A stretch of 64,000 nucleotides of DNA from Manduca sexta (Eukaryota > Arthropoda > Insecta > Lepidoptera > Sphingidae): NCBI RefSeq assembly GCF_014839805.1, contig NC_051138.1, positions 6,384,983 to 6,448,982 on the forward strand, written 5' to 3'. The notes under the pieces are model-generated. The model saw only the letters and a program-made list of their open reading frames with translations, ran no database searches and was not told the DNA's origin. Position 1 is the stretch's first letter; each line of letters begins with the position of its first letter. Of the stretch, positions 3,186 to 51,561 are shown one piece after another. A program made the translations under genes and the position numbers.

Positions 3186-5414
3186 TATGTATACAAAACA
3201 TCGTTTACAACGACATTTCCACTAACATCAGATTGATTCAATTTAATATCATTTTATAACCATTTTTATTCATGCGCAATGAAATTTTCTTCAAATCTAC
3301 TTCATCTGAGAAACACTAAACGAGTAAATAAGTTCCTTATCCATTATTCATTATAAAATCGCGGGAGGAACTGAACTTATTATTATGCCTAATTATAATA
3401 TCCGGGGCGAGATCTCGTTAACGTCGGCACGTAATAAAAGCAAACGCCAGAACCACAATGCAGCACTAACTTACTGGAAGTGATGGAAAACGAATATTTT
3501 ACATCCAACTGCACAGACACATCTTTTGTTTTCATTTCTAGTTCATGTTCCTACCGCTGGGATTTTGAATGGCATTAACAGAATGAGTTTAGTTCGGACG
3601 TTCGTGGCTGCTTACCTATAACTTGCAATTATAATTTTATGTTGCTGTATAATTTATACATTATAGCGATGGAAAATTTCTGTCATATCGAAATTAAAAC
3701 ACCATCTTCAATCCTATCACGCGAAATTGGCATTTGTTTTAATTCTTTCAACAGCTAATACTAAAACCATTAGTGGCACTCGAATTAAAAAGACTTTCAT
3801 TCGGTTAAACGGTATTGAAGTGCCATAAAATGTAGTCGATTCCAGCAATTATTAGATATCTGGAGTAAAAAGTAATTTAGCAACCCCCGGTCGACGGCTT
3901 ATGCAAATGGTAATCAGTAAAAAATGGACCATTCTAATCGTCCGTAAGCTCTGTATCAAGCCACTTCAATAGAAATATTAATTAAATCGTCCATTCGACC
4001 ACTTAACCCGGTTCAAACTGCCATTGTTCTGTACGTGGATAATTTTTTGCCCGATTGCACGGAGCAATGATGGTAACGTATTTCGGCTAGTAGACATGTG
4101 TATACGTATTCATGTCATGTATGTATAATGTATATGTATATATTTACTACATATAAAAGAGTGTATATTTATTTGATGCTCTTTGTGAGCTGAAAATCCC
4201 ATATTTTGATATTAAAATTGGATTCGTGTATTCTGTGGGATAATATTTACTTAGTTGCTTGCTTCACAAAATACAACAACCGCCGTAATGGGGTAGATAC
4301 ATTAACTGTTTATTTAAACCTGAATTTATTTACTTGTTGAAATAGAAATACCGTGTTAATAATTTAAAGGTACAAAAAAAACTTCAATCGCAATGCAGAT
4401 TCACCTAAAATTGCCGCATCCTTTGAATTACGTCATCTCTGATTCTTTTAAAAGCATAATGACCCGATTTGCACACACTGTCACAAACAAGCCAAGCGTC
4501 AAAAGGGCTCTCCATCCAGCACTTAAATTGGGTGAGGTCTCGTGAAATTACAATTACGTGACATCACTTCGTTCGCTCAACGAGCAGAAAACAAAATACC
4601 CTCACCTCTGTGTTTCACGCATAGTTTTTTATTCAAACTCGTTTAAAAGCGTTTCGAATGAGGTGTTAAGAATAAATTACCTTATGAATACTAGCTGATT
4701 GTACACTTTTCTTGCTTAAAGGTAAAATTGTGTGATCTTTTAATCAATACTTTTTTTAGTATTATGATACAGTGTTGGATTTGTCTATAGGGCGTATAGC
4801 GTCATAATATTTTAAGATAGGAGCAGCACAAAAGGCTGACTTTTTGCAAATTTTATTCGGGACTTTTTGTGACATGTCTTAACTTATTAAACAAAAAAGC
4901 ACGTAATGTACGAATCAGTTGCAATCGGAGATCATTATGTTGCCCACGCTAAATAGGCACCCAGACGCGAGACATTCTAGACGGTGAGTAACTTAGATTT
5001 ACTTGGACACTCAAATTGCTCTGGATGCACTAAAATTACCATATTTATTTAAATAAATATTGATCAATTACATAATAAATATAAATTAAAACAAGTAGAA
5101 TACGAAATTTTAGTTGCTAAAATTCAATTTTACATTTTTTTTTTAAATTAAGACTCTTGATCAAGTCCGTAAATTGTCAAAAATAACGACTCAAAAAGTA
5201 TTCAAAGATAAAGTCGAATGTAAAGGCATCTTACAACATACAAACAAACGAATTGTAAGTCGACCTACATTCCACCGGACAATTCGAAGAACATTCCGAA
5301 AAGCTGCTGGACAAGCAAAGCGGAGGAACGGTTTCAAATTGTCTAACAGTGGACAGATACCAAGTGATGGATGGCTAGAAAGTTAATTGAACTATACAGA
5401 TAGCTATGTATTTA
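3186..5414. other. Non-coding stretch, nothing recognised
   Basis: About 2.2 kb with no open frame over about 60 codons except a 70-codon frame at 5174-5386 (basic, no domain). It contains simple AT-rich text, including an ATGTATA-rich patch near 4117-4150. No repeat shared with the rest of the window was spotted. Confidence 0.5.
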
Positions 5415-5810
5415 ATATCCTCGGTGGCGTAGTTGTAAGTGTACACGGTACAAGTACGACTGCCGCGCTGAGGTCCTGCGTTCGAATCCCGGGTCGGGCC
5501 AAAATAATGGTGACTGGGTTTTTCCATCTTAAAAATTACTCAGTCGCAGCTCGGAGTCAGGAAGTTGGCGGTGTGATACCCCCGTGCCTCGGAAAGCACG
5601 TAAAGCCGTTGGTCCTGCCCCTGATCTCGTTCCGGTCATGTCGGATTGCCGTCTCACCGAACTATGAGAGTGAAGGAACAGAGAGTGCACCTGTGTATTG
5701 CGCACACACTTGTGCACTATAATATCTCCTGCGTACCTGGCTGATCTCCGTTGAGTTTGGCCGCCGTGGCCGAAATTCGGCTAGGAGGGGATTCATTTTA
5801 TATATAATTA
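5415..5810 (+). repeat. tRNA-headed SINE family C (head of A, different body)
   Basis: The head (CCTCGGTGGCGTAGTTGTAA, then a B box GTTCGAATCCC at about 5481-5491) is nearly the same as the family A head. The body is different: it holds GCCTCGGAAAGCACGTAAAG (about 5586-5605) and ends with GGCCGAAATTCGGCTAGGAG. A second copy in reverse orientation is at 47675-47970. The open frame across it (5387-5722) is a by-product of the SINE. Confidence 0.8.
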
Positions 5811-6217
5811 TTTGCATTTGGTTTAAACATATCTTTTGAAACAGGGATAAGATGCATCGGATAAAATATTACCCACGTAGTGAAGGAAAAAAATAAGGAA
5901 ACAAATCCGCATACACCGAATAAAATATTTCTACTTAGAGTACGAAAGCCCGTGATGACAGTTCAGTGGAGTGCAACCCACTTTGTAACTCATAATGTTG
6001 ACGCTCGAGTCTTGCTTTTGCACACGAGAGCATACTTTTATCAGTTAACAGTGAAAATTGTATAAACAATGACATTACATGGCACTATTGTGTTTGAAGT
6101 TTTTTCGGTCTTTGTGCTACTTTAGACTCTAGTTTTTATTATTATTCAAAGGTTTATTATCATACAGAGTTTAGGTAGTAGGGATCTTTACCTATTAATG
6201 AGTGGACAATGAATACA
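5811..6217. other. Non-coding spacer, nothing recognised
   Basis: About 400 bp of AT-rich sequence between two repeats. A 61-codon open frame at 5880-6065 has no recognisable domain. Confidence 0.5.
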
Positions 6218-6545
6218 TATCATGGTTGCTAATTACACATTGAGGCTTAAAAGGGTTCGCGAACATTTTCCCTCCCTCTCCCTTCCAACCATCCTAGGAA
6301 AGCTCCTTCTCCTTCATTTTCTCTTCCTTCCTCCCTCTGTCCCCTCCCCTCTTCCTCCTGGGCCCTGTGACCGAATAGCCGTGGGTCGCCAGCGCACCGT
6401 CCGCTGCCACCCCCGGCGATAATAATAGGGCCCACCAAATCCTCACAGGGACTGCCGTGGTTGCTAAGCTAGGGGATCGCTTGTACACCATTAGCAGGGT
6501 ACCCCCGGTGACAACCACGGCAGAACTCCAAAAAGAAAAAGAATA
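6218..6545 (+). repeat. Interspersed repeat G1, C-rich, A-rich end
   Basis: It begins CATGGTTGCTAATTACACAT (6222), continues with TTCGCGAACATTTTCC, then a long pyrimidine-rich block (6269-6360), GGTACCCCCGGTGACAACC (6499 on) and an A-rich end (about 6529-6545). A second copy in the same orientation starts at 15501. The strand-asymmetric C+T block and A-rich end suggest the 3' UTR of a non-LTR retrotransposon. No reverse transcriptase is attached. The three overlapping open frames here are shadows of low-complexity text. Confidence 0.55.
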
Positions 6546-7261
6546 TATAAATGTACATTAAATGTTCAAGTCATACACGTAGAATACCATAATAGGATCA
6601 CAATTACACAGAAATACAATTAAAATTATTATAAATGTTTAATTGATTTTCACTAATGTATAGATTTTGCTAGCGGTCCCACCAGTAAAAAATCTTCGTG
6701 CAAATGAAAATAGGTATTTTTAATATGTTAAATAAAAATTCACCTTAATTCATGGTTTATCTTAGTCCAATAAAATTCTTTATTTAAATACTTTACAGTA
6801 TATTCTTTCCGTGTTCATAAGTTACCAAGCACGCCCATGTTACATACGTTTATATTACGTGTATGAAGAAGGGTAGTTTTACAAGAAAACACTAATATTT
6901 AGGTACGTAACTTTAGTGCCACGAGCGAAATTCTATAGACCAATTCCATACGTAAAATCTACTTTGCTATCAACTTTTACCCCCGAAAGCGTCAAGTTCT
7001 TCGGCAAATGTTATGAATAAATTGCACGTCCATTTGCAATTCTCTTGCACGCATCCGAGTACAACGTACAAAATATACAAAATGAACAACTTGGTTTAGT
7101 TAGACTAATATTATGTTTTAAAATGCATTCGTGGCATTTTTGATACCCAAAAGTTGTTTATATGTGTCACAACTCACAATTATACTATTATGTTAAGGTT
7201 TAGGGTATAAATGTAATCATTTGGGACCAAGATAACAACTCATATCAAAAATGTGTGTGTT
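6546..7261. other. Non-coding spacer, nothing recognised
   Basis: AT-rich, with no open frame of note and no internal repeat seen. Confidence 0.45.
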
Positions 7262-9892: not shown

Positions 9893-10070
9893 TGTTGGAG
9901 ATTGTAACCTTCGTCGTGACTTATTATTTTTTATATGTTCTATTTTTAGAACTAATTGTATTTTGTTTGCCATAGTTACTTCCCTTTTAGTCCGAAATAA
10001 ACACTCATGTCAATAACATCTTTTTACTAACTTTATTTAATTACTAAGAACATATACCATATTTACAACA
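9893..10070 (+). repeat. Copia 5' LTR
   Basis: 178 bp, starting TGTTGGAG and ending TTTACAACA, matching 13546-13723 base for base as far as I can read. It contains an AATAAA at 9996-10001 and an AT-rich TATA-like run near 9920-9930. The left flank AAGTT is repeated after the 3' LTR. Confidence 0.95.
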
Positions 10071-10086
10071 CGTTATCAGCACGAAC
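10071..10086 (+). promoter_or_regulatory. Putative primer binding site of the copia element
   Basis: The bases right after the 5' LTR (CGTTATCAGCACGAAC) are where the tRNA primer anneals. Copia elements often use an internal fragment of a tRNA rather than its 3' end, which would fit the lack of the usual TGG start. The tRNA was not identified. Confidence 0.5.
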
Positions 10087-10173
10087 GCTTAGTTCTTAGT
10101 TTTTTTCACGTTATTTGGTAAAATAAAGTTGTATATATTTTTTGTGTGACTAGGAAATAGTAATAGTCTGAAA

Positions 10174-10785
10174 ATGTCACATGAATCTGGAGATGTTTCG
10201 AGTATGAAAAATTCCCCTGCGTCGATCACATCTTTTCCATTTCCTTGTTTGAGGATAAAAGATGGATATCCGACTTGGAAGTTCAAGATGCGAAATTACC
10301 TTATCCATGAGGATTTATGGGAAACAATTAGTGGATACCGAGATGGAGACACAACCCCTGCCTCTACAAAGGTACGCAAAGACGCAAAGGCATTAGCAAA
10401 GATATGCTTATCAGTAGAAGGTGCAGCGATAACCCATATAAGATGTGCGAAAACTGCATCTGAGGCATGGACTTGTTTGCAAAAAGCCTTTGAAGATAAG
10501 GGAATAGGACGAAGATTATTTTTGGAGCGTAGACTGTACAGGTTGAGTCTATCAGAGTTCCAAAATATTGAACTATATATTAACGCAGTTATGTCAACCG
10601 CACAGGATCTTGCGGATATTGATGTAGTCATAGAGGACAAGTCTATTGCTGCAATACTTTTGGGAGGTCTAACTCCAAGGTATGAACCTCTCATTATGGC
10701 TTTAGAAAATTGCAATGTAGACGTGACTACAGAGTTGGTGAAAACAAAACTGCTTAATGAAATGTCCAAAGATGTGGACCATTAG
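10174..10785 (+). pseudogene. Copia gag, N-terminal part
   Basis: This 203-codon frame starts at the first ATG about 100 bp after the LTR. Residues about 20-200 match the copia-type gag (UBN2 / DUF4219-like): an early 'YPTWKFKMRNYL' block, a 'LSVEGAAITHIRCAKTASEA' block, and a 'LGGLTPRYEPLIMALE' block near residue 170. Gag builds the cytoplasmic particle that packages element RNA. The frame ends by a one-base-type shift just before the zinc knuckle, which continues in another frame from about 10786. Intact copia elements usually carry gag and pol as one frame, so this is damage. Confidence 0.9.
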
Positions 10786-11372
10786 ACTCTGTTTTTCATG
10801 CGAAGAAGAAGCCTAAGTCAATGAAGAAGAATATAGTTTGTTATGAGTGCAAGACACCTGGACATAAGAGACCAGACTGTCCACAGAGAAATAAGAAGGA
10901 GAAAGGCAATGCGGTAAATACCAATGATACGATATTTACAAGTCTTAATACTTCTGGAAACCCAAGAAAGGACATAATTTATGTAGATTCAGGTTGTACT
11001 AGACACATGACTTCTAGACGGGACTGGTTTCAGAATATCTCGATACAGAATCAAGGTACTGTTACTGTCGCAAATGGAGAACAGATTAAGTGCTGCGGAA
11101 TTGGAAATATTTCAATAAACACGCCCGAGAACGTGGTCAACAATATTAGTGATGTTGCTTATATACCAGATTTGAAAGCTAGTTTGTTATCTGTATATAA
11201 AACTGTTGAAAAGGGTTTTATTTGTGTTTTTGATAAAAATGGATGTAACTTTTATAAATCTGATACTTTTAATTTTACAGGTGAATCTGTTGCTCATGCC
11301 TCGCCCTGTGGTGGACTGTACGTTTTAGATGGTACTGTAAATGTTTCCGAGAATGTGGCGGATAATTTTTGA
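10786..11372 (+). pseudogene. Copia zinc knuckle and aspartic protease
   Basis: The longest ATG-started frame is 10821-11372 (183 codons); coding similarity begins a little upstream. A CCHC knuckle CYECKTPGHKRPDC (C-x2-C-x4-H-x4-C) sits at residues 5-18 and binds element RNA. The protease active site is DSG in 'YVDSGCTRHMTSRRDW' near residues 55-70. This domain cleaves the polyprotein. The frame closes at a T run (about 11366-11370), and the integrase continues in the next frame, so a frame change separates the protease from the integrase. Confidence 0.9.
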
Positions 11373-12265
11373 CACAAGATGTGCACTCTGGTTGTCAGGA
11401 TAGTTATCAAATATGGCATAAGAGGTTAGGACATTTGTGTCGTATAGGCATGAACCAACTGAAAAATCACAAGGTAGGTATAAAGTATACAGGAGTAGAT
11501 AAAACTAGTTGTATCGCTTGCGTGGAAGGTAAACAAGCAAGAAAACCTTTCAAAAGGTTAGCGTTTAATAGGGCTACTTCCCCTTTGGAACTGATCCATA
11601 TGGATTTGATGGGACCGGTGTCTACAACTTCTTTTCAAGGAAATAGATATATGTTGACAATAGTAGACGATTATACGCGAAAAGTGTTTGCTTATTTTAT
11701 TTCTTCTAAAACAGAAGTCAAAGATATATTTTGTGTGTTTCAATGTTTTGTTGAAAATCAGTTAGATAAAACAATTAAAGCAATTAGGACTGATGGAGGT
11801 AAGGAGTTCGTGAATAAAGAGTTTGTTGATTATCTTGCTTCAAAAGGTATAGAACATCAAACAACGACGCCTTATAGTCCTCAGCAAGTTGGAGTAGCGG
11901 AACGCACCCATCGTTCGGTTACAGAAAAGGCAAGAACGTTGCTAGCTGAAAGTTCACTACCGAAAGCATTCTGGGAAGATGCATTCCAAGTTGCCATTTA
12001 CCTTAAAAATAGGTCTCCTCATCGAGCCTTAGGTGGACAAATTCCTTATGACAAATGGTATGGACGAAAAGGTGATCTTAGCCATCTAAAAGTATTTGGT
12101 TGTAGAGCTCTAGTCCATATACCTTCGTGTCACAGGAAGAAATTAGATGTCAAGGCACAGGAAGCAATTTTCGTCGGTTATTCTGAAAATCCAGGCACTT
12201 ATATTTTTAGGGACCCTGCTAACCCACGAAAAGTTATTATATCCAGAGATGCAACCTTTTTTTGA
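11369..12265 (+). pseudogene. Copia integrase
   Basis: A 298-codon open frame. The N-terminal HHCC zinc-binding region (gag_pre-integrase type) is visible: HKRLGHL near residue 18, then CIAC near residue 48. The DDE core follows: Asp in LIHMDLMGP (about residue 80), Asp in IRTDGGKEF (about 141), Glu in QVGVAERTHR (about 178). It would insert the cDNA into the genome. All three catalytic residues look present, so this is the best preserved part. The frame ends at a run of T (12257-12263), and the downstream linker reads on in another frame. Confidence 0.93.
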
Positions 12266-12764
12266 AAATTGCTTTACAGCGCTAAAGCAGAAGCAATCTG
12301 TCGCACAGTCAGAATCTATATTGTTATTTGATGAGCAAAAAGAGATTGAGTCTGAGTTTGATCATGACTGTCAATTCTATGACTGTGATGAGAATATCAG
12401 CCCGGCGGCTGAAGCAACTTTACCAGTAAATCTAGAAAGTGCAAAAGAGTCAGTGACTCTGGAAGAGCGAGAGTCTCTCAGTGACTTAAGGATGCCTAGT
12501 GTGGAAAAAGAGACAGCGAATTTGGAACAGGAATCGCACCCTGAGCGCAGATACCCTTCCAGAGACAGAAAACCAACAAATTTTTATAAAGCTTACAATA
12601 CGTCAATGGTAGATTCTAATGAACCTACGACATATTACGAAGCTACTCATGCCGATGATGCTGATAAGTGGCACCATAATATGGCTGGTGAGTATAGTTC
12701 TTTAATGAAACTCCATACATGGAATTTAGTAGATAAGCCTAAAAAAGGTTATGCCATGTAAATG
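12266..12764 (+). pseudogene. Copia integrase-RT linker and start of RT
   Basis: It is open within a frame running 12147-12761; only the part after about 12250 is in the element's coding register. An acidic linker (Ser/Glu-rich, about 12300-12560) leads to 'RRYPSRDRKPTNFY', a motif typical before copia RT, and then 'EYSSLMKLHTWNLVDKP', the first RT block. The frame closes at 12759-12761; RT similarity carries on for about 15 codons in a different frame. Confidence 0.85.
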
Positions 12765-13005
12765 GATTTACAAAATTAAACTACCAAACTCTATGGTAAA
12801 GAACTTATGATATTGGGAATTTTGTTGATGACATAAAAGTCTTCTTTAAATCTAATTTGACATTTGACACTGTCAAGAATTTGAATTTTTGAGAAGATTT
12901 GTCGAGATATTTTTCATTAAAAGATCTCTGAATTATATTCTTTCTATATTAGAAAAGTTTAATATGAAGGAGTGTAAGACCGTGGATACTCCATTAGTTT
13001 AAAAT
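12762..13005 (+). pseudogene. Copia reverse transcriptase remnant, largely deleted
   Basis: Only scraps remain: CKWIYKIK just after the frame change (about 12757-12780), the catalytic-type VDD (FVDD near 12821-12832), and a late RT block ending FNMKECKTVDTPL near 12959-12996. These lie within about 240 bp, whereas a copia RT needs roughly 700 bp. The fingers and most of the palm between the first block and VDD are missing, and the region between the last scrap and RNase H is also short. RT activity from this copy is ruled out. Confidence 0.85.
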
Positions 13006-13008
13006 AAT

Positions 13009-13476
13009 ATGGCAAGAAGAACGGATGGTCAAGTCATAAGAATGAAGAACCATTTAAAGGGTTTTTGTGACGCAGACTGGGCAAACTGTCCAATCGACAG
13101 AAGGTCATACACCGGTTATGTTTACAAGTTAAGTGGAGGTCCAGTATCATGGGAATCCAAGAAGCAACCTACTGTTGCGTTAAGTTCGGCCGAGTCAGAA
13201 TATATGGCATTAGCGTCTGCCACGAAGGAAGCGTGTTACTTACGTCGGTTTATATACGAGATAACAGGTATACTTTGTTCAATTAACTTAGCTTCTGACA
13301 GCCAAAGTGCCATTAATCTTGTTCGAAATCCTGTACACCACAGCAGGACGAAGCATATAGATACTAGGTTTCACTTTATTAGGGAAAAGGTATCTAATAA
13401 TATTGTTAAGTTAGAATATATAAAAAGTAACGATATGCCTGCTGATGTACTAACGAAGCACACAAACGATGTGTAG
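13009..13476 (+). pseudogene. Copia RNase H domain
   Basis: A 155-codon open frame. The typical copia RNase H motifs occur in order: GFCDADWANCPIDRRSYTG (about residues 19-37, with an active-site Asp), PVSWESKKQPTVALSSAESE (about 45-64, with an active-site Glu), SDSQSAINLVRNPVHHSRTK (about 96-115, with an Asp), then HIDTRFHFIRE and 'NDMPADVLTK' near the C-terminus. The domain itself looks intact, but it is cut off from a functional RT. Confidence 0.92.
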
Positions 13477-13533
13477 TTAACTTAGGTTTAGAAACTTAAT
13501 TATTTTATTTGTTTTGTTTCTGTCACAACTGCG

Positions 13534-13545
13534 ATTAAGGGCGGC
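13534..13545 (+). promoter_or_regulatory. Polypurine tract of the copia element
   Basis: A purine-rich ATTAAGGGCGGC sits directly before the 3' LTR, where plus-strand DNA synthesis is primed. The position fits exactly; the tract is short and interrupted by C, as is common in copia elements. Confidence 0.7.
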
Positions 13546-13723
13546 TGTTGGAGATTGTAACCTTCGTCGTGACTTATTATTTTTTATATGTTCTATTTTT
13601 AGAACTAATTGTATTTTGTTTGCCATAGTTACTTCCCTTTTAGTCCGAAATAAACACTCATGTCAATAACATCTTTTTACTAACTTTATTTAATTACTAA
13701 GAACATATACCATATTTACAACA
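13546..13723 (+). repeat. Copia 3' LTR
   Basis: Identical by eye to 9893-10070. It is followed at once by AAGTT (13724-13728), the second copy of the target duplication. Confidence 0.95.
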
Positions 13724-24640: not shown

Positions 24641-26238
24641 TAAGTGCGTGTGTGTTAATACAAGAAATAATTAATGATAAAATATAATATAAATAGTTAA
24701 AAGAAATTGGCTCCATTCACTTATTTTAACATACATTTAACAACAGAACGCGTGAAGTCTGCATATCTCTGGATTTACTAGACTTTTGATGTGGTTTTCA
24801 ACTCTGTATGAGGGATTTATTTCGGTATAATATTTTAGTAAAACATTTCTAAACACTAAAGTGATAAACTTATAATATGAATATTTTCAATGTAATAACG
24901 GAATAGTCGGAACGCGGATCTGAGCGCTGCTCGAAGTTAAGATTTAATAGTGGAACGCGGAACTTTTGACCCATTTGGAACTTGTCATGCGAAGTCATGC
25001 CGCGAGGAAAAAATAGTAAGCCTATCTCTTTTTTGTTAGGAACGAGACAAACAAGTCGCTTGCCTAGTTCGAAAACTTTAAATTACAAAATTGTACTTGA
25101 TACTGCACAGCGTTCGTCACACCAAGACATTAACTCTTATAAATATAAATTGTACTAGGTTTCTGCTCATTTTATCAGCAATACAACTGCAGTTCTACCA
25201 AACTTCTCACTGGCATCAGAAAGCAGTCGTAGATGGTGGTACCTTTTCAAACGAACTATACGTTAAATGAATGAGTCCATACTGATGACAGCTACGGCGA
25301 CAAATACCCTGTATTATTATTCGGTCCGGTCTAATTATTTGTATTAAAACAATCATATTTTTGTAAAAACGGCAAATGACCGATAGGTATGATATAATTT
25401 GCCTTACTAATGTGCTATGAGTATTATCAATTACCTACCTAGTAATTATAATCAATTACCTAGCACTATGTTCTCCATTTAACACACGTTGTGCGTACCA
25501 CAATTCCGCTTACATCAAAGGCTCCTTCGAATTAACCGTAATAAAAAACTAGCGAATCTTGTAAATGAACTAAAAAAAGCCACAATATAAATTGCGTGGA
25601 ATGTCACGCGCCTAATAATATAACATTAAACGGATATTATACACTTCCCGAAGCAGAATCACGTATGAGATAACATTTTTCAAACACAATATCTGTGCAT
25701 ATGTTAGCCTCATATTACATTTCCCAACATTTCCCCAGTACGGTATCGCTACTCTACGACACAGTAGACACCCGCATAACATTCGCTGTTTTTGTTGTTT
25801 GTTACGGCTGCTGGTTTACTATTTACTTTGTTTGGGGTTTGTATATCCTAACCATACGACAAACGATTGACTTCGCTTTAACTCTGCACAAAAGTCTAAT
25901 TTTTCATTCGACCTTTTATCGATCTTGAGTTATCAAACCTTTTTATCGATGGAATTTTGTTGGAAATATCGTTGAATTAAATACTTTCTATGTTATGTTC
26001 TCTGTATTATTTATCGTTGATCTATAGTCAAAATTATAGTGTAATCCCTAATAATTGTGTATTATACGTGCCACAAAATTTTAGGAAATTGAATACCAAT
26101 TTAATTTGTGGTGTATTCAGCAGGAATTAGAGCAATATTTAACTCAGTTATCAATGAACATATTGTATTTCGTATAATTACGTACATATGTTTATAATTT
26201 CATAACAATAACAGTCTATTATATACCGTGTATTGTAA
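24641..26238. other. Non-coding stretch, nothing recognised
   Basis: About 1.6 kb. One 77-codon frame (25695-25928) is rich in hydrophobic and aromatic residues and has no domain. A short direct repeat of TCAATTACCTA-type text lies near 25427-25460. Confidence 0.4.
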
Positions 26239-27086
26239 TCTATACTTATAATAAATCTGTAGAGAGGTCAATTCTGTACATGAAATATATTTCCAAAATA
26301 ATAACTATCAGGGGGTGATTAGGGATCGATACTGATGCCAAAAATGCAATTAGTAAAATTTTTGTCGGTCTGTCTGTCTGTCTGTATAACCGTTATAGAA
26401 ACAAAAACTACTCGACGGATTTTAACGAAACTTGGTACAATTATTTGTCATACTCCTGTGCTGGTTATAGTATACTTTTCATCACGCTACAATTAACAGG
26501 AGCTGAGCAGTGAAGGGAAATGTTGGGAAAACGGGAGAAGTTACTCCATTTTTTAAACTTCCGTCGCGTGTGCAACCTTAATGGTTAAAGCTACACAGAA
26601 ATCATGTATGACGGAAATGTTCTCCTTAAAATTATGTAAAAAATATCCCACGACAGCATATGTCTATCTTTTATGGTTGACTCACAATAACACGTGTAAC
26701 TCCCGATAGCTTAGCAGTTCGAAGCTTTCTCATTATATTTGTCTACTCTTACGTTTATAACACTCTCAGTCATCCCTAATTAAAAAAAATAACATTATTA
26801 AATATTCCATAAAAAAGAATCATCGAAATCGGTATAGAAACACCAAAGTTATACATGAAATACGCTAATAATAAGCCATAATGCGTGAATACTGAATCAT
26901 GCTATAAGGATTATTTTTGTATATATATAAGGTCGCGAACGCACAGGCAGGCGGCTTGCTTGGCACCTAGAGGCTAGGGAATCACCTAGCGAGTAGCTTC
27001 GTAAAACGAACATTCTCGAACGTTCGCGACCGGCTCCATTTTTGAAGTCCGAAATCCACGCGGGCGAAGCTGCGAGCGGAAGCTAT
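26239..27086 (+). mobile_element. Helitron-like non-autonomous element carrying a heat-shock element
   Basis: It starts A|TCTATACTTATAATAAA (26239) and ends with a hairpin-type CACGCGGGCGAAGCTGCGAG followed by CTAT (27083-27086; CTAG in better copies). A TCTG microsatellite lies at about 26367-26385, with the block ACTACTCGACGGATTTTAAC typical of lepidopteran repeats. Unlike the other copies it contains a compact, GC-richer segment (26921-27037) with a TATA-like run, an 11-bp inverted repeat and four alternating heat-shock pentamers. Confidence 0.65.
27008..27025. promoter_or_regulatory. Four-unit heat-shock element (HSF binding site)
   Basis: GAAcaTTCtcGAAcgTTC: four perfect alternating nGAAn pentamers at 5-bp spacing, the arrangement bound by trimeric HSF. 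The TATA-like TATATATAAGG is at 26922-26932, and the 11-bp inverted repeat GGTCGCGAACG / CGTTCGCGACC (26931-26941, 27021-27031) brackets the segment. Binding and function are inferred, not shown. Confidence 0.6.
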
Positions 27087-28359
27087 TTGTAAATATACAT
27101 TTACACATTTGGAACTGAGTATAATAGTATATAATACTATATTATTAAATACTGACTTTTTTTTCACATACAATATTAATAGAAAATAACAACCTTTATT
27201 CGAAGGATTTAATTATTATTTTGTACCGGAAACATTGTATAACATAAATAACAAAACATCATTGTTTGTATTCTTTCCACTTCGTTGGAAAGGCGAAATG
27301 AAACGTAGTGTAGCGTTTTACTCTTTGTGCTCAGTCAGATAAAGAAATCTATCGTCGTTTGTTTAGGTTAAAACAAAAATTCCGTTTTAAATAATATATA
27401 CATTTTGTGGAAAAGCATTAAATTAAATTCTACTTGTCTATTTATATGAAAGATATTGCAAAATGTAAACCAAGTTTTAGAAATAATAATCATTAATTAT
27501 AATCAGGCTTCATTCAACTTGTAAATAAATCACACTGAACTCTATTATAAGACCTGAAATTGTATATAAAGTAACAGAAATCAAACATAATATTAAACGC
27601 AAAGATGTTTAATATTCGTGAAACTAAAACACATCACGACAATACGCTTTAAATTATTAACCATTTTAACAAACACACTACAATATTCCATGCAATAAAA
27701 TAAACAAACACGATTATAATTCAAATACGACGAGAAATGTTAGACTAAATCCGGCAAAGCGTCGAATAGATGCGTTTTATGCAATTGCGTTCGTCAGCTA
27801 GCTTCGGACATCGGCCGAAATAGATCCCATATGCTATTTGATTAGGTTTGGCTATCGTTTATATACGCCAGTCACGAGAAACTCAGCTTCTGGCTCCATC
27901 ACTGAAGCGGTTGACAGAATAAATAAGGTCCACACTCCACAGCAAAGTAAATAAACATTGATTTGTCACGTGTAATTTAAATTAGTGTTGAATACAAACA
28001 TTTTGAGTACGTTGTTTAATCTCTGTAGATGATTAATGTTCACTCGAGAAGGCATATTTTAATCAGCGGTTTATGGCGATGTTCTCTAGTATAATTTACT
28101 CTCTCTAGTATAATTTACGAATGCACGGATCGATTTAAAGGATTTCTTAAAGAAGAGAAGAAGAAGAGATTCCTTAAAGAAGCAATCTTTAATAAAACTC
28201 CATAATTTAATTTTCTCATTGGATTCCCTCTACCTAAAAGGTCGATCAATACTAATTATTCTGGCTGTATAAGTGTTTGAGGGTGGTGATCATATACCAT
28301 CAGTATCTACTTAATTTGACAATCGTCTGCTACAAAGCTGTATAAACTTTATTTATTCA
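27087..28359. other. Non-coding stretch, nothing recognised
   Basis: AT-rich. Short local repeats are seen (for example two TCTCTAGTATAATTTAC units at about 28083-28120). No coding frame. Confidence 0.4.
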
Positions 28360-28987
28360 CTAGCTTTTGCCCGCGGCTCCGCCCGCGTTAAAAAGCTTTT
28401 CAGCCTAAAGTTTTCCGTTATAAAAGTAGTAGTTTCCCGGGAGCCTATGTTCTTCCCAGGGTCTCAAACTGTCTCCATACAAAATTTCATCTTAATACGT
28501 TGGGTAGTTTTTGAGTTTAACACGTTCAGGCAGACAGATGCAGCGGGGGACTTTGTTTTATAATATATTTTTAGAACTTTTTAAGAGGAACAATCCCGTC
28601 ATACATTATTGTTGCATAACTTTAACCGTTTCCGCAGCGCACGCAACGGAAGCTCTCAAAACTAATAATTATTCCCCGTTTTTGCAACATGTTTCATTAC
28701 TGCTCCGCTCCTATTGGTCATAGCGTGATGATATATAGCCTATAGCAGTCCACAACCAAGGACTATTCAACACAAAAATAATTTTTCAGTTCGAATCGGT
28801 AGTTCCCGAGATTAGCTATCACTGCTCCGCTCCTATTGGGTATAGCGTGATGATATATAGCCTATAGCACTCCAGGAACAAAGGGCTATCCAACGCAAAA
28901 ATATTTTTTCAGTTTGGACCGGTAGTTCCTGAGATTAGCGCGTTCAAACAAACAAACAAACTCTTCACCTTTATATAATAGTATAGA
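28360..28987 (-). mobile_element. Helitron-like non-autonomous element, complete ends
   Basis: On the minus strand it runs A|TCTATACTATTATATAAAGG (from 28987) to CGCGGGCGGAGCCGCGGGCA-AAAG-CTAG|T (to 28360). The hairpin just before CTAG and insertion between A and T are Helitron hallmarks. 628 bp, no Rep/helicase, so it depends on an autonomous partner. A 122-bp unit is duplicated inside it (28701-28944). Confidence 0.8.
28701..28944. repeat. Direct tandem duplication of a 122-bp unit inside the Helitron
   Basis: TGCTCCGCTCCTATTGG starts each unit (28701 and 28823). Both units run through GCGTGATGATATATAGCC to GTAGTTCC(C/T)GAGATTAGC with the same spacing and only scattered differences. Confidence 0.85.
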
Positions 28988-36973: not shown

Positions 36974-38494
36974 GTGGGTTTATAAACTTCTTTCTCATAA
37001 TTTCATTTACTAACGCTACGAACTTATGTTTTGTCTCTGTGCTACATGCGACATAACAGCCTTAATAATATTATATGAATCATATCATAGATGTTAAGTA
37101 TTAAACATGTTTTTAGAAGTCTAACGGAAAGGACAATATCGTTTCGATACAGTATCTTATTATCGTCTCAATGCTGGACACGAACCTTTACTGAGAAGTG
37201 TTTAGGAATAATAATATTCATTGTTATTTAAACCAGATTAATAGAATATAAACGTCCAACACTTTACACAAAGCAATTCTGTAAAGTCCGACCTAGATTT
37301 TAGAGACACAATTCGTGGATTCCGCTCCGCGACAACGCACCGGCGCATACCGCTTTGCTTATCCAACAGTTCTTGACGAAAATAAGACCATTGTGACTTT
37401 TCAGCGACTATGTCTGTTGTTCTCTAGATATGCGACTTTTATATAAAACTCAAAAGAACCTTTAAAAGACAACATTTGTCAAAAGATAAAATCTCACCCC
37501 AAACTTAATACGTAAACTAAAGAAATGCTTTAGCGGTTTTTCTACCAATGAAAACTTAAATAAATAAAACCACTGGGTGAATAAGATCGCTTGGAGGTGA
37601 TAGTATACAAATAAAAGATTACAGTGATATTCTTTTGCTAAATAAAAGATTTCCTTTTTGTCACATTACGATAGCGAATACCTAGAGATTAACGAAAAAT
37701 ATTACCGTGAGTATTTTAATTAAAAAGACAGCCGATCTCACCTACAAAGCAGAATTAACTATAAGAAGACAATGTTCGTAGATTCATTGTCTAACTAACC
37801 AATGTGTAACTTATCTCAACTCTAAGTTCCGTACTCCGGCATCAATAGGTATTATAAGTAACTTTCCCTTTTCTATTCAGTTTGGCCACAAATGACCCTT
37901 GGAACTGGCCCGCAACATCGCTGTCACCGCCGCCCGCGTCGGAAAATTGGATTTAATTAGGCCACAGTAAAACAAATCGACTCTGACACTGTGTGTTAAA
38001 GTCATACTTTTTTTTTGCGGGGAACGTACGATTATTAGTATCGCTCAGCTTCGGGGCGATTGAACAGTAATGTTGCGGTTATCAGTCTTAAAATACAACA
38101 TTGTGACACCTAGAAAGTTGTAAACATAGAACTATCGCTGGCCCTAATAAATATTTTACTGTAATTATTAATTACTGTATTTGTCATAACAGTATATTGT
38201 TTTCCAAAATTTGAAAGTAGTGTGATTTTAACACAGTTTAATCGAACTGGGAGTACATGGATGGATAGATTGTTTAGGCTAGAGAAACTTGACGCAATAA
38301 TTTATTTTCTCTAAGTGCTTTCTGAATTATTATCCTTGTTGTAACTGCCTGTTGTATATATTTGTGTTATAAATTAACATTTTGTTATACAGGTAATAAG
38401 ATCTAATGAGAAGAGAAGCAATAATAAATTAATATAAAAATTAGAATTATAAAACCTGAAAATATAAGAAAAGTAAAAAATAATTATTCCTTAC
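36974..38494. other. Intron following TMTC coding exon 2 (3' side), nothing else seen
   Basis: Directly downstream, on the minus strand, of the donor GTAAGG at 38489-38494. No further TMTC exon was recognised between here and position 1, so the 3' part of the gene may lie outside the window or in short exons missed by eye. Confidence 0.5.
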
Positions 38495-39302
38495 CTTAAA
38501 GTAAGATTCCTCGTGGTGAGTGGCTCTCAAAAAGTCATAGAATATGCAGAGAGGCAAAACCATTATAGCCGGTTCCTTGCACAAAGTGGCGGCTGCAGCG
38601 AACAAAAGTGTTCCTCCTAAGGTGAACCACTGCAAGAGTTCACACGTATCTCCACTCGCATTATCACTGTACTGACACTTAACCGATCTCAAAGTTCCGT
38701 TAACTTCACAAGTATCTAACATTTTCATCGGGCCAGCTTTGCCAGCCTTCAACAATCTACGAAAATTCATCATAATGTGCTGCATCAAGCCGTGACAGCT
38801 CAGGCGAAATGATTGATCATTGGATGATGGCTCTCGGGGCTCTACATGCTCTTTGACTGAATGCCGACACTGTCTTCTGTGCCGTTCCTCGCGCAGTCGT
38901 ATATGCTCGCTATATAAAAGAAAACTTAAGAGGAATAGGTTGCAAGCGACTACGTCCGCCCGCCCGACCACTCCGGCCACGGCTTCCGTGTGGATAGGGT
39001 GGGCCGCAAACGTGAAGCCGGCCACTACAGTACCCACTCTTCTGCAATAAGAGGGTAATAGCCGCCGCCCTGTAGTCACTACTAGAGCCGTGGCGGTGCA
39101 GTGGAATATTACGTTGAGCAAATGGTAACTCCACGGTCTGAATCCACTGAATATGTAATTGAGTCGATATGTAGCGACGCACAGCGGCCGGTACGACCCG
39201 TGCGAACCCGGGTCCGTAAGCGGCGTTCCCCAAAAATCGTTTTCGAATAATGCCATTATTGGAGTGTGGCCGATGACATCCGGATTTGAGAGGATCGCCC
39301 GC
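38495..39302 (-). CDS. TMTC-family protein O-mannosyltransferase, coding exon 2
   Basis: TMTC proteins are ER multi-pass enzymes (GT-C fold) that add O-mannose to cadherins; TPR repeats form the C-terminal half. This 808-bp exon encodes residues 31-299: 'RAILSNPDV', then FENDFWGTPLTDPGSHGSYR, a family signature, 'LNYIFSGFRPWSYHLLNV', then AAHPIHTEAVAGVVGRADVV, the most conserved family block, and CKEPAIMVLPLCIFYDFL. Membrane segments are visible near 'LNVIFHCTATALVV', 'ADVVACNLFLLSFLLY' and 'LGGTLLFAAAATL'. A poorly conserved loop of about 85 residues (Arg/His/Ser-rich) separates the last two. The acceptor TTATTTTTCGCAG is at 39303-39315 and the donor AAG|GTAAGG at 38489-38494; the 3' intron phase is 0. 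Which paralogue (TMTC1 or TMTC2 more likely) is not settled. The frame is intact, without stops. Confidence 0.93.
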
Positions 39303-42051
39303 CTGCGAAAAATAATAAAATTTTATGTTTATACTTTTAAAATGTGTTTGATATATTATTCTGAGCTGTTCTGGATAATTTTATAGCAGAATATATTTTG
39401 ACTTTCGTACTATAAGATAAAAAATAAAATGTACTTTAGGATTGGCCTGCTTCATAGTACTGTTATGGAAGCCTACCAGGTTTATGGTGGCAATTTCTAA
39501 TACGAAGTACATATTTTCTAACATCAAATCCTAATCGAAACATGAAATGGAATTTAATTTTGAAAAAATAGATGATAGCCTATAACTAGGTTCACTAGGA
39601 AGACACTAGAATGGAACATAAAATGGGTACATACGCAGTGTCAAAAACATTACCCTTCCTTGCTTTGCCATAGTCGGATATTAAAAAAAACACTTATCAA
39701 TTACATCCAAGTTCATAGACAAATAATTAAAAATCCATTATAGCTATGGAAATCAATATCTTTCAAGTTCGTAGACTAATTACATACGCATACAAGTAAT
39801 TATAGATTTCTCAACCAGCATATGAATCGAAAAGAATTCGTAAAGCAGAAATTCTCACCGAATAAAGCCTTAACCTACAGTTTTCGATTCTTGGAATAGC
39901 CACCCGGGTTGCAATCTTACAGTAGTTACAAAAGTTTTAAAACTATAACCCCGTACGTTTGTACAAGGAATCCGGAAAGCAAACCTGCATCTCTCCATGG
40001 CAGTAATATTTACTCAATAGGACCATGTATTATAATACAGTTACATGACTTAAAAAAACAATATTCGGACATAACTTACAATAATAATGTACCAACCAAC
40101 TTTCGGATACAATACGTAACTAAGATTTATGTTAAATCATTGTAACTTTGATTGTTGTGTTAATTAATTAATATTTTATAACATTTAAAATTAAGTTTTA
40201 TAAATGTATACAAACATAAAAATATATAATAGCAATAATAGTATCGTCCCTGGACAAAAAAAAACAATACTTTACTAATAAAATTATGCACTTTACGTAT
40301 CTAAAATTGGCGAAAATCCTCGAGCATAATTTTCGAATGGCCAAAGTGCTTATAGCGACTACTAATAACTTTGTAGGTATGTACGACGTTCAACGCCCTT
40401 AATAACGTATATTTTTCATCAGCTTTGATTAAAAAACTTTCACTGCCCAACTTTTGCTCAGTCCTGCTTTACCTTTTTCAATATAAAGGAGCAATATTTG
40501 CCATTCCGCAACTATAATATATATGATTAAATATATTACTCTTTTTATTGCTATCTACTATCTGATTTACCTATGTGGTTTTTTACATTTGGTAGAATTA
40601 TTTGAATATTATTAAATATTTTATATTATATTAAATTATTAATAAACTTTGTTTTTGGGACTTTGAAAATGATCAAATTAATTTAAATTTCTAACTACCC
40701 TCGTTAGTGAAAGTAATACAAGACACCTTTCACGAATAATCATAACTACACATAAAAATACATAACCAAAGGGATTTTTTTATTCACAATATCAACTTAA
40801 ACTTAATATACAAACTTATAAAAAAATCCACGTTTATAAATTTAATAGAAAAGAACAAATTGGAGCAACGGAGTGGAACTGCTTAATTTAAATAAAATAT
40901 TACTTTCTTACCTGGCCGGGTATCCCTACCTCCCCAATGTATCCCAAACGATTGGCCCTATGCCCTGACCGTTACCTTCCCTGGATACCTCAATGCAATC
41001 TAAATAATCGACATGTTTCAAAGCTATCCATCGTGCCTGTGAAATTGATTTTGTGAACCGTATATTGACGTTTTCCGGTTGATGTGCGAAATAGCTAACC
41101 AACCTCGGTTGATTGGTCTTCAAGGAGAGCTCGCTCAACTGTGCGGTACAATTTGAGACTTATTAGTTCGAATTTCAAATTTAATTTAGGCTTCGAACAC
41201 GTGAAATTGGTAGGTGATAGAAATACATACATAGAAATATATACATCGATATATATGTATGTACTTAGCGTTCCGAACATTTGCTGTGTTTAACTGAATT
41301 AAACTGCAAACCATTCAAACTGACTTTAGTATGGTCAATATTGATAGCCTGTGGTTGTGTTTGAAGTGGCGCTCATGATATAAAAACTCGAGTGTAAACC
41401 TCGTTTTGAATAAAAAATATTAGTCAAATAAGTAAAATTATTTGTTGTTGAAGTGAATAAATAGGTTATAACAGTGACGTTTTGTTTGTCATTTTAATTC
41501 AGATTCTGAACAAATAGTTTATATGGACGTTCATATAGTACATGTATACATCAATTATATGTCACAATTTGCGTGGTAAGTTTATTAGCGGTCATAAACT
41601 AATTTATCGCTGAAAGTGAAAATTGGTCTGGCACACATAATTATTTCAATGTTAAAAGGACATCTATCAACTTTTCACTTACTTTCAACTGTAATCCGTT
41701 TTCGTAATTTTTTTCAAGTCGCAAACACTCCAACCTCATAATCACAGCCCCAGTGGTTTTATATTACTAAGTACTCCGTTATTATAATATTTTTTTAGGA
41801 TCTATATTCCTTGAAGCGAAAACAAAAAAAAATAATTTTATTGTTGATATTACATATAGAAAAATAATGAAAATTATGACGGTGGAAAAGGTCCGTACCC
41901 TACGTACAAAGGCAGTTCGAGTAGGCCTACACTAACAGTGGACTACGCAACAACTCATCCTTTTATCTATTGATCCCTCATACATTTGATCCCTTCATTT
42001 TAGATTTGAAGTAGAAAGCCAGTAAAATAGCCAATTGAATAATATATTTTT

Positions 42052-51256: not shown

Positions 51257-51561
51257 TTAAGGTTATAGCTTAAGGTCCATTTTTCATACATTTTGTTTCA
51301 CCTTTAATCTGGGTAACTAAACAAGTATTGACAAGTAAAGAATTTAAATTCGCGTCTAGTTAGTGATTAGTTCTCGCAGTTGAAAGAAAAACGTAAAAAT
51401 AATTAATATGCATGGATATTTCGGCCTTTAAAATTTCGTCGTATTAAATTTTAAAGAACTAGACGTGAATTTAAATTCTTTACTTGTCAATACTTGTTTA
51501 GTTACCCAGATTAAAGGTGAAACAAAATATTTAAAAAATGGACCTTAAGCTATAACCTTAA
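51257..51561. mobile_element. Long-palindrome MITE bounded by TTAA
   Basis: The left arm (51257-51361) and right arm (51457-51561) are near-perfect reverse complements over about 105 bp, with only a few mismatches (near 51285-51292 and at 51351). The outermost bases are TTAA on both sides, then GGTTATAGCTTAAGGTCC and its complement. The loop is about 95 bp. TTAA ends suggest a piggyBac-mobilised MITE. Non-coding. Confidence 0.85.

Follow-up and report, generated by a model that had tools for sequence, protein, structure and literature searches.

Heat-shock elements (HSEs) carried by Helitrons have been described in Caenorhabditis, where 61.4% of the HSEs of C. elegans, counted with a looser motif, lie in Helitrons (Garrigues et al. 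2019, PMC6927752), and where these HSEs show HSF-1 binding, a gain of HSF-1 and Pol II and induction nearby (PMC6927752). In their wider genome scan the same authors found the enrichment in three Caenorhabditis species alone, and they suggest that it could be peculiar to that genus (PMC6927752). Lepidopteran Helitrons are known from other angles: Hel-2 (BmHel-2/OnHel-2; Coates 2015, PMC4344730) has been described with a (CTGT)n tract downstream of the 5' subterminal repeat and with a membership threshold of 65% identity to its consensus, and Lep1 Helitrons (PMC4038834) with a conserved 5' body and acquired sequences that vary towards the 3' end. Among other transposable elements, ONSEN/COPIA78 of Brassicaceae (PMC5059998) contains heat-responsive elements. 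Heat shock elements are also mentioned in a Bombyx promoter/enhancer paper (PMC4455783). No published insect Helitron with HSEs was found in the literature at the level of titles and abstract openings, which is weak evidence of absence. In this report, we describe such an element from Manduca sexta, in which the HSE lies in a cassette in whose place a sister subfamily has another.

The element resembles the Caenorhabditis Helitrons in being non-autonomous and in holding most of the HSEs (61.4% there and 795 of 1111 perfect four-unit sites here, figures that are not strictly comparable because the motifs differ; the present array would not match the cross-species motif NGAANNTCCNNGGAN as printed in PMC6927752). 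It differs from them in its insect host, in the exchangeable cassette with its HSE-less sister, and in carrying one perfect array per copy, whereas high-density clusters of up to more than 100 are a mark of the Caenorhabditis elements and are absent from the element studied here. With Hel-2 it shares, by description, the 5'-TC and 3'-CTAG ends, insertion between A and T, (CTGT)n near the 5' end, a 3' hairpin and the lack of coding sequence; in contrast, its consensus is 845 bp long against 339 bp for Hel-2 (PMC4344730), and Hel-2 is not known to carry an HSE cassette. Like Lep1 Helitrons, it has a conserved 5' body and variable sequence towards the 3' end, but the exchange is internal and the last 53 bp are kept (PMC4038834). 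It is, like ONSEN/COPIA78, a transposable element with heat-responsive elements, predicted ones in its own case; unlike that plant LTR retrotransposon, which is itself heat-activated, it has no long open frame (PMC5059998).

The window, that is, the whole 64-kb stretch of DNA that was analysed (G000:C24:6384983-6448982, in a genome of 470 Mb and 4056 contigs), contains at 26239-27086 on the plus strand a non-autonomous Helitron of the structure 5'-TC...CTAG-3' (CTAT in the window copy), inserted between A and T, as determined from copy alignments and flanks. The preliminary description had placed the HSE segment inside an element with Helitron-type ends, and the Helitron identity stands; the range first given, 26921-27086, is to be corrected to 26239-27086 for the element on the evidence of the copies. 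The window copy is 848 bp long and the consensus of 28 copies 845 bp. In alignments of 29 other copies the element begins at 26230-26239, with 27 of the 29 starting at 26236-26239, and ends no earlier than 27085; a start at 26308 was ruled out, since the aligned copies place it at 26239. Helitrons have 5'-TC and 3'-CTRR termini; an exact TC start was found in 28 of 30 copies, which had been cut at a fixed 3' motif, and 27 of these 28 end in CTAG, the remaining one being the window copy with its CTAT. All 39 distinct 3' flanks (one flank was seen twice) start with T, and the 5' flank ends in A in 22 of 28 copies and in TATC-type repeats in the other six; insertion between A and T without target duplication is as in Helitrons. 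The 3' terminus (27034-27086, plus strand; 53 bp with a short hairpin and the CTAG end) is 94-100% identical over 52-53 bp in L054, L077 and L080-L083, and the hairpin predicted for it is short, with a 5-bp stem in the CGGGCGAAGCTGCG region. Near the 5' end lies a (CTGT)4 microsatellite (26370-26385, plus strand), a mark of Hel-2 in its published description (PMC4344730). No open frame of at least 110 aa was found in 26239-27086, and the element is therefore taken to be non-autonomous. Its features fit the lepidopteran Hel-2 type as published. Three further Helitrons of the window, near 28360, 55378 and 62210, lack the HSE segment, as had been observed before: within that segment they match over no more than its last 28-40 nt (at 28361, 55670 and 62686). 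The one near 28.5 kb additionally has 184 nt of body in common with the element, at 72%.

The HSE itself, GAAcaTTCtcGAAcgTTC at 27008-27025 (no strand assigned), was identified by direct reading and by an array scan. It consists of the four perfect alternating nGAAn units previously reported, and is the sole four-unit perfect array in the 64 kb, an HSE being defined by three or more such units in 5-bp register; the window scan found no other perfect three-unit match within the element. A fifth unit at 27028-27030 is imperfect on direct reading, with GAC in place of GAA, and the site accordingly fits 14 of the 15 fixed bases of a five-unit array (four perfect units and two of the three bases of the fifth). 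Among order-2 Markov sequences of 64 kb with the trinucleotide make-up of the window, 55 of 3545 (1.6%) contained a four-unit array in either phase, close to the earlier estimate of about 1%, so the presence of the array in the window is by itself only mildly surprising. Dinucleotide shuffles of the window gave a four-unit array of the given phase in 1 of 100 cases, and random 139-nt sequences with the dinucleotide make-up of the segment gave one in 147 of 4,282,000.

A genome search with 26900-27086 yielded 1417 first-look candidates, and the best 40, which were scored, all matched at 99-100% identity over 186-187 nt and were spread over 20 contigs; the segment is multi-copy. Both ends were found for 37 of these 40 copies and the HSE was intact in all 37, a proportion ascertained by the query, as the copies were chosen via similarity to the HSE module. 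For the same reason, the near-invariance of the module (2/6845 variable sites) was discarded as evidence. Divergence from the consensus was 0.12-1.42% (28 copies), and outside the query region the mean interior divergence was 0.95% (109/11,451 sites, 37 copies). The HSE-bearing family is young, with the reservation that the 40 scored copies are the best-matching of 1417 candidates and that older copies are missed. Single copies showed further peculiarities. One (L073, G000:C1:4146790-4147660) has lost consensus 239-690, up to the left margin of the inverted repeat described below, but retains HSE unit and 3' end; two family HSEs at G000:C3:5602853 and 5603051 lie 198 bp apart in opposite orientation, apparently in tail-to-tail elements. 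Tandem units of about 158 bp with long open frames occur near another copy (L055, about 5000-7000 in minus-strand coordinates), and on the plus strand of L071 two apparently related frames, one of 1189 aa (from 268) and one of 1183 aa (from 6041), flank a further copy.

Exact-word counts show how much of the HSE content of the genome belongs to this family. The perfect four-unit pattern GAANNTTCNNGAANNTTC has 990 sites in the genome against 48 for the backwards-read control pattern, and the opposite-phase pattern TTCNNGAANNTTCNNGAA has 121 against 47. The exact HSE 18-mer of the element occurs 795 times (410 + 385) in the 470 Mb and its reversed control not at all, so that the number of copies with an intact array, which the preliminary description had left to be counted, is in the hundreds. 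This one word makes up 795 of the 990 sites of its own phase (80%) and 795 of the 1111 sites of both phases (72%), a total that counts overlapping arrays twice. Among the first 50 listed of the 990 sites, 33 were the exact word and three were one-off variants that all proved, once fetched, to lie inside family members; two of the remaining 14 were fetched as well, and neither matched the family. From the 37 copies examined, and from the body word found beside 9 of 11 HSE sites on contig C1, it appears that all 795 words sit in the Helitron. At 845 bp each, 795 copies would take up about 0.14% of the genome, which corresponds to an enrichment of the kind described in Caenorhabditis (795/990 sites in about 0.14% of the sequence); because exact-word counts overlook diverged copies, they are lower bounds for the family size. 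The element thus supplies most of the perfect four-unit HSEs of this genome. Two sites of TTCTCGAACGTTCGCGAA, in which the fifth unit is GAA, were seen at G000:C5:3831663-3831685 and G000:C11:8536377-8536394, the former overlapping an exact family word and forming a perfect five-unit array. The opposite-phase arrays appear, by eye, to prefer the spacers TTCTAGAA, TTCCAGAA and TTCTCGAA, as if many were real HSEs, and two of them (C11:4730630 and 4731201) lie 571 bp apart.

A body 18-mer (consensus 451-468), picked with the same CpG number as the HSE 18-mer, occurs 1595 times in the genome (823 + 772; control 0). On contig C1 the family HSE follows 250-400 bp downstream at 9 of 21 body-word sites and is absent at 12, and conversely the exact body word is missing at 2 of 11 family HSE sites. 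With a divergence of about 1%, point mutation is unlikely to account for 12 losses in 21. We fetched 271 bp at 8 of the 12 sites, and none of these stretches contained a perfect three-unit HSE. In five, the last 53 bp of the element (from consensus 793) are preceded by another cassette, about 105 bp long, and in four of the five the left junction at consensus 665-667 is visible as well (L077, L080, L081 and L082, with junctions at 665-667 and 793). The right junction alone can be seen in L083, whose fetched stretch starts inside the cassette, and in a second element in L054, which by eye has the same alternative cassette on a shorter body. The other three of the eight lead into Helitron-like sequence of another kind, which resembles parts of consensus 238-405 at 70-78%. 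The body word is common to at least two other element types; this leaves the size of the true sister subfamily only roughly known and makes the word unusable as a retention control, for which the 18-mer CTAGCGAATCACCTAGCG inside the cassette was chosen. These junctions define an exchangeable cassette of about 125 bp (consensus 668-792; 26909-27033, plus strand) that unites HSE, TATA-like run and inverted repeat, and a sister subfamily that has another cassette at the same place, no HSE and the same last 53 bp.

We consider it probable that a young, high-copy Helitron of the Hel-2 type gained its HSE through an internal cassette exchange and then spread it to about 800 places; the anatomy, the copy number, the youth, the cassette difference and the genome-wide HSE enrichment are all observed directly. 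The Helitron would have acquired a five-unit HSE, four units of it perfect, by swapping an internal 125-bp cassette near its 3' end, presumably in this direction, and rolling-circle transposition, with Rep/helicase presumably supplied by another element, would have carried the cassette to its present places. The HSE most likely arrived with captured DNA and would be dispensable for transposition. Indeed, the HSE-less relatives have also spread, so the HSE was not required for spread; the idea that it drives the spread was rejected because these relatives are equally common (12/21 sites on C1; 1595 against 795 words), and, given their abundance, nothing indicates that the HSE was selected for.

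The same observations would also fit another possibility, namely that the HSE is real in sequence and functionally inert, its copies silenced and the cassette a mere passenger of a transposition burst. Since the family is only about 1% diverged, intact HSEs need no selection, just as the spread of the HSE-less relatives needs no HSE. Against it, four perfect units in a row make a strong binding site for HSF. The precedent of C. elegans points both ways: genes with Helitron HSEs show repressive marks and low expression there, and yet many of these HSEs are bound despite the repression (PMC6927752). We regard a wholly inert cassette as possible but rather unlikely. In the main reading, each copy would be a strong potential site for HSF trimers; most copies would probably be silent or neutral passengers, and a minority near genes may act as heat-inducible enhancers or start sites. 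By analogy with C. elegans, binding of HSF trimers and heat responsiveness may be expected of some gene-adjacent copies. The proposal in the preliminary description of a mobile stress-response module in an insect is borne out as far as the carriage of the HSE by a Helitron to hundreds of places is concerned (795 exact copies), and its heat-response part is putative.

The remaining features of the cassette bear on two further explanations. A TATA-like run, TATATATATAA, lies at 26920-26930 (no strand assigned; by sequence and motif scan), two bases off the 26922-26932 first given for it, and its promoter role is putative. It is followed by an 11-bp inverted repeat, both arms of which are exact on direct reading at the positions first reported: the left arm GGTCGCGAACG at 26931-26941 and the right arm CGTTCGCGACC at 27021-27031 (both plus strand), the right arm overlapping the last HSE unit and the left arm being paired in single-strand folds. 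It is conceivable, and in our judgement improbable, that the GAA/TTC array is a palindrome by-product in a hairpin unit bounded by this repeat, either a Helitron 3' signal or the relic of a small inverted-repeat element. The inverted repeat fits such a structural reading equally well. Within the array, GAACGTTC is itself a palindrome; the plus strand, folded as single-stranded DNA, forms a multi-branched structure closed by the 11-bp stem; and as RNA the minus strand gives a better fold than 195 of 200 shuffles do (z -2.6). However, the fold of the single-stranded DNA is nothing unusual (z -1.0; matched by 26 of 200 shuffles), direct reading showed no target duplication next to the inverted repeat, palindromes alone do not impose four units in exact 5-bp register, and the sister subfamily spread with another cassette, so the hairpin of the HSE cassette is not needed for transposition. 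As for promoter function, the motif scan found no initiator-type match at the expected plus-strand place (the minus-strand place being at the edge of the scanned stretch), and only base composition speaks for a promoter reading of the segment. Between the TATA-like run and the HSE lie 77 bp, a gap that differs from the spacing of classical hsp promoters and that speaks against a captured promoter. That the Helitron picked up its cassette, with HSE and TATA, from a host hsp promoter is very hard to credit, for although HSE and TATA-like run occur together in a region GC- and CpG-richer than the AT-rich body, and lepidopteran Helitrons do acquire sequence near their 3' end (PMC4038834), no source locus appeared among the 40 scored near-identical family copies, where a diverged source would not be visible.

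Searches outside the genome were confined to viral, phage and prokaryote sequence and so have no bearing on other Lepidoptera. The exact HSE 18-mer and a body 20-mer had no match in viral contigs, and a 17-mer had 21 matches there, which aligned over no more than 25 nt at the HSE end and were taken as chance; the Helitron 3'-end pattern was found in neither viral nor prokaryote contigs, the HSE-repeat pattern was missing from prokaryote contigs, and phage records gave no match. Protein searches with the minus-strand frame through the segment gave no candidate in one case and 14 in another, none with E<=10, and Rfam had no match on 25800-27600. Of a first set of six literal DNA words sought in papers, one turned up once, in a mycovirus paper; a second set of six had no match. 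Elsewhere in the window, a Copia-type LTR retrotransposon at 9893-13723, with integrase, GAG-pre-integrase and SH3 domains, has terminal 178-bp direct repeats that are 100% identical and is probably a very recent insertion; an imperfect palindrome of about 305 bp lies at 51257-51561, with 81% identity to its own reverse complement; and a coding-like stretch of 291 aa at 38447-39322 on the minus strand, without a match in Pfam, presumably resembles TMTC proteins.

The principle of Helitron-borne HSEs was already known from Caenorhabditis; what is new here is the other phylum, the single array per copy and the swappable cassette. Copies with and without a transcription-factor site usually differ in much else, and it is thus hard to test whether transposons rewire or litter a genome. 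Because the two subfamilies described here have body and 3' end in common and are told apart by a 125-bp cassette, they amount to a matched natural experiment, in which about 800 HSE-bearing copies stand beside HSE-less ones that by extrapolation number in the hundreds. We propose, tentatively and with less than even confidence, that one Helitron family has through a swapped cassette become both the main source of perfect HSEs and a recruiter of new genes into the heat-shock response, an independent and recent case outside nematodes with an HSE-less twin as its built-in control. Such a finding would widen the published picture, in which the enrichment of HSEs in Helitrons has been seen only in Caenorhabditis.
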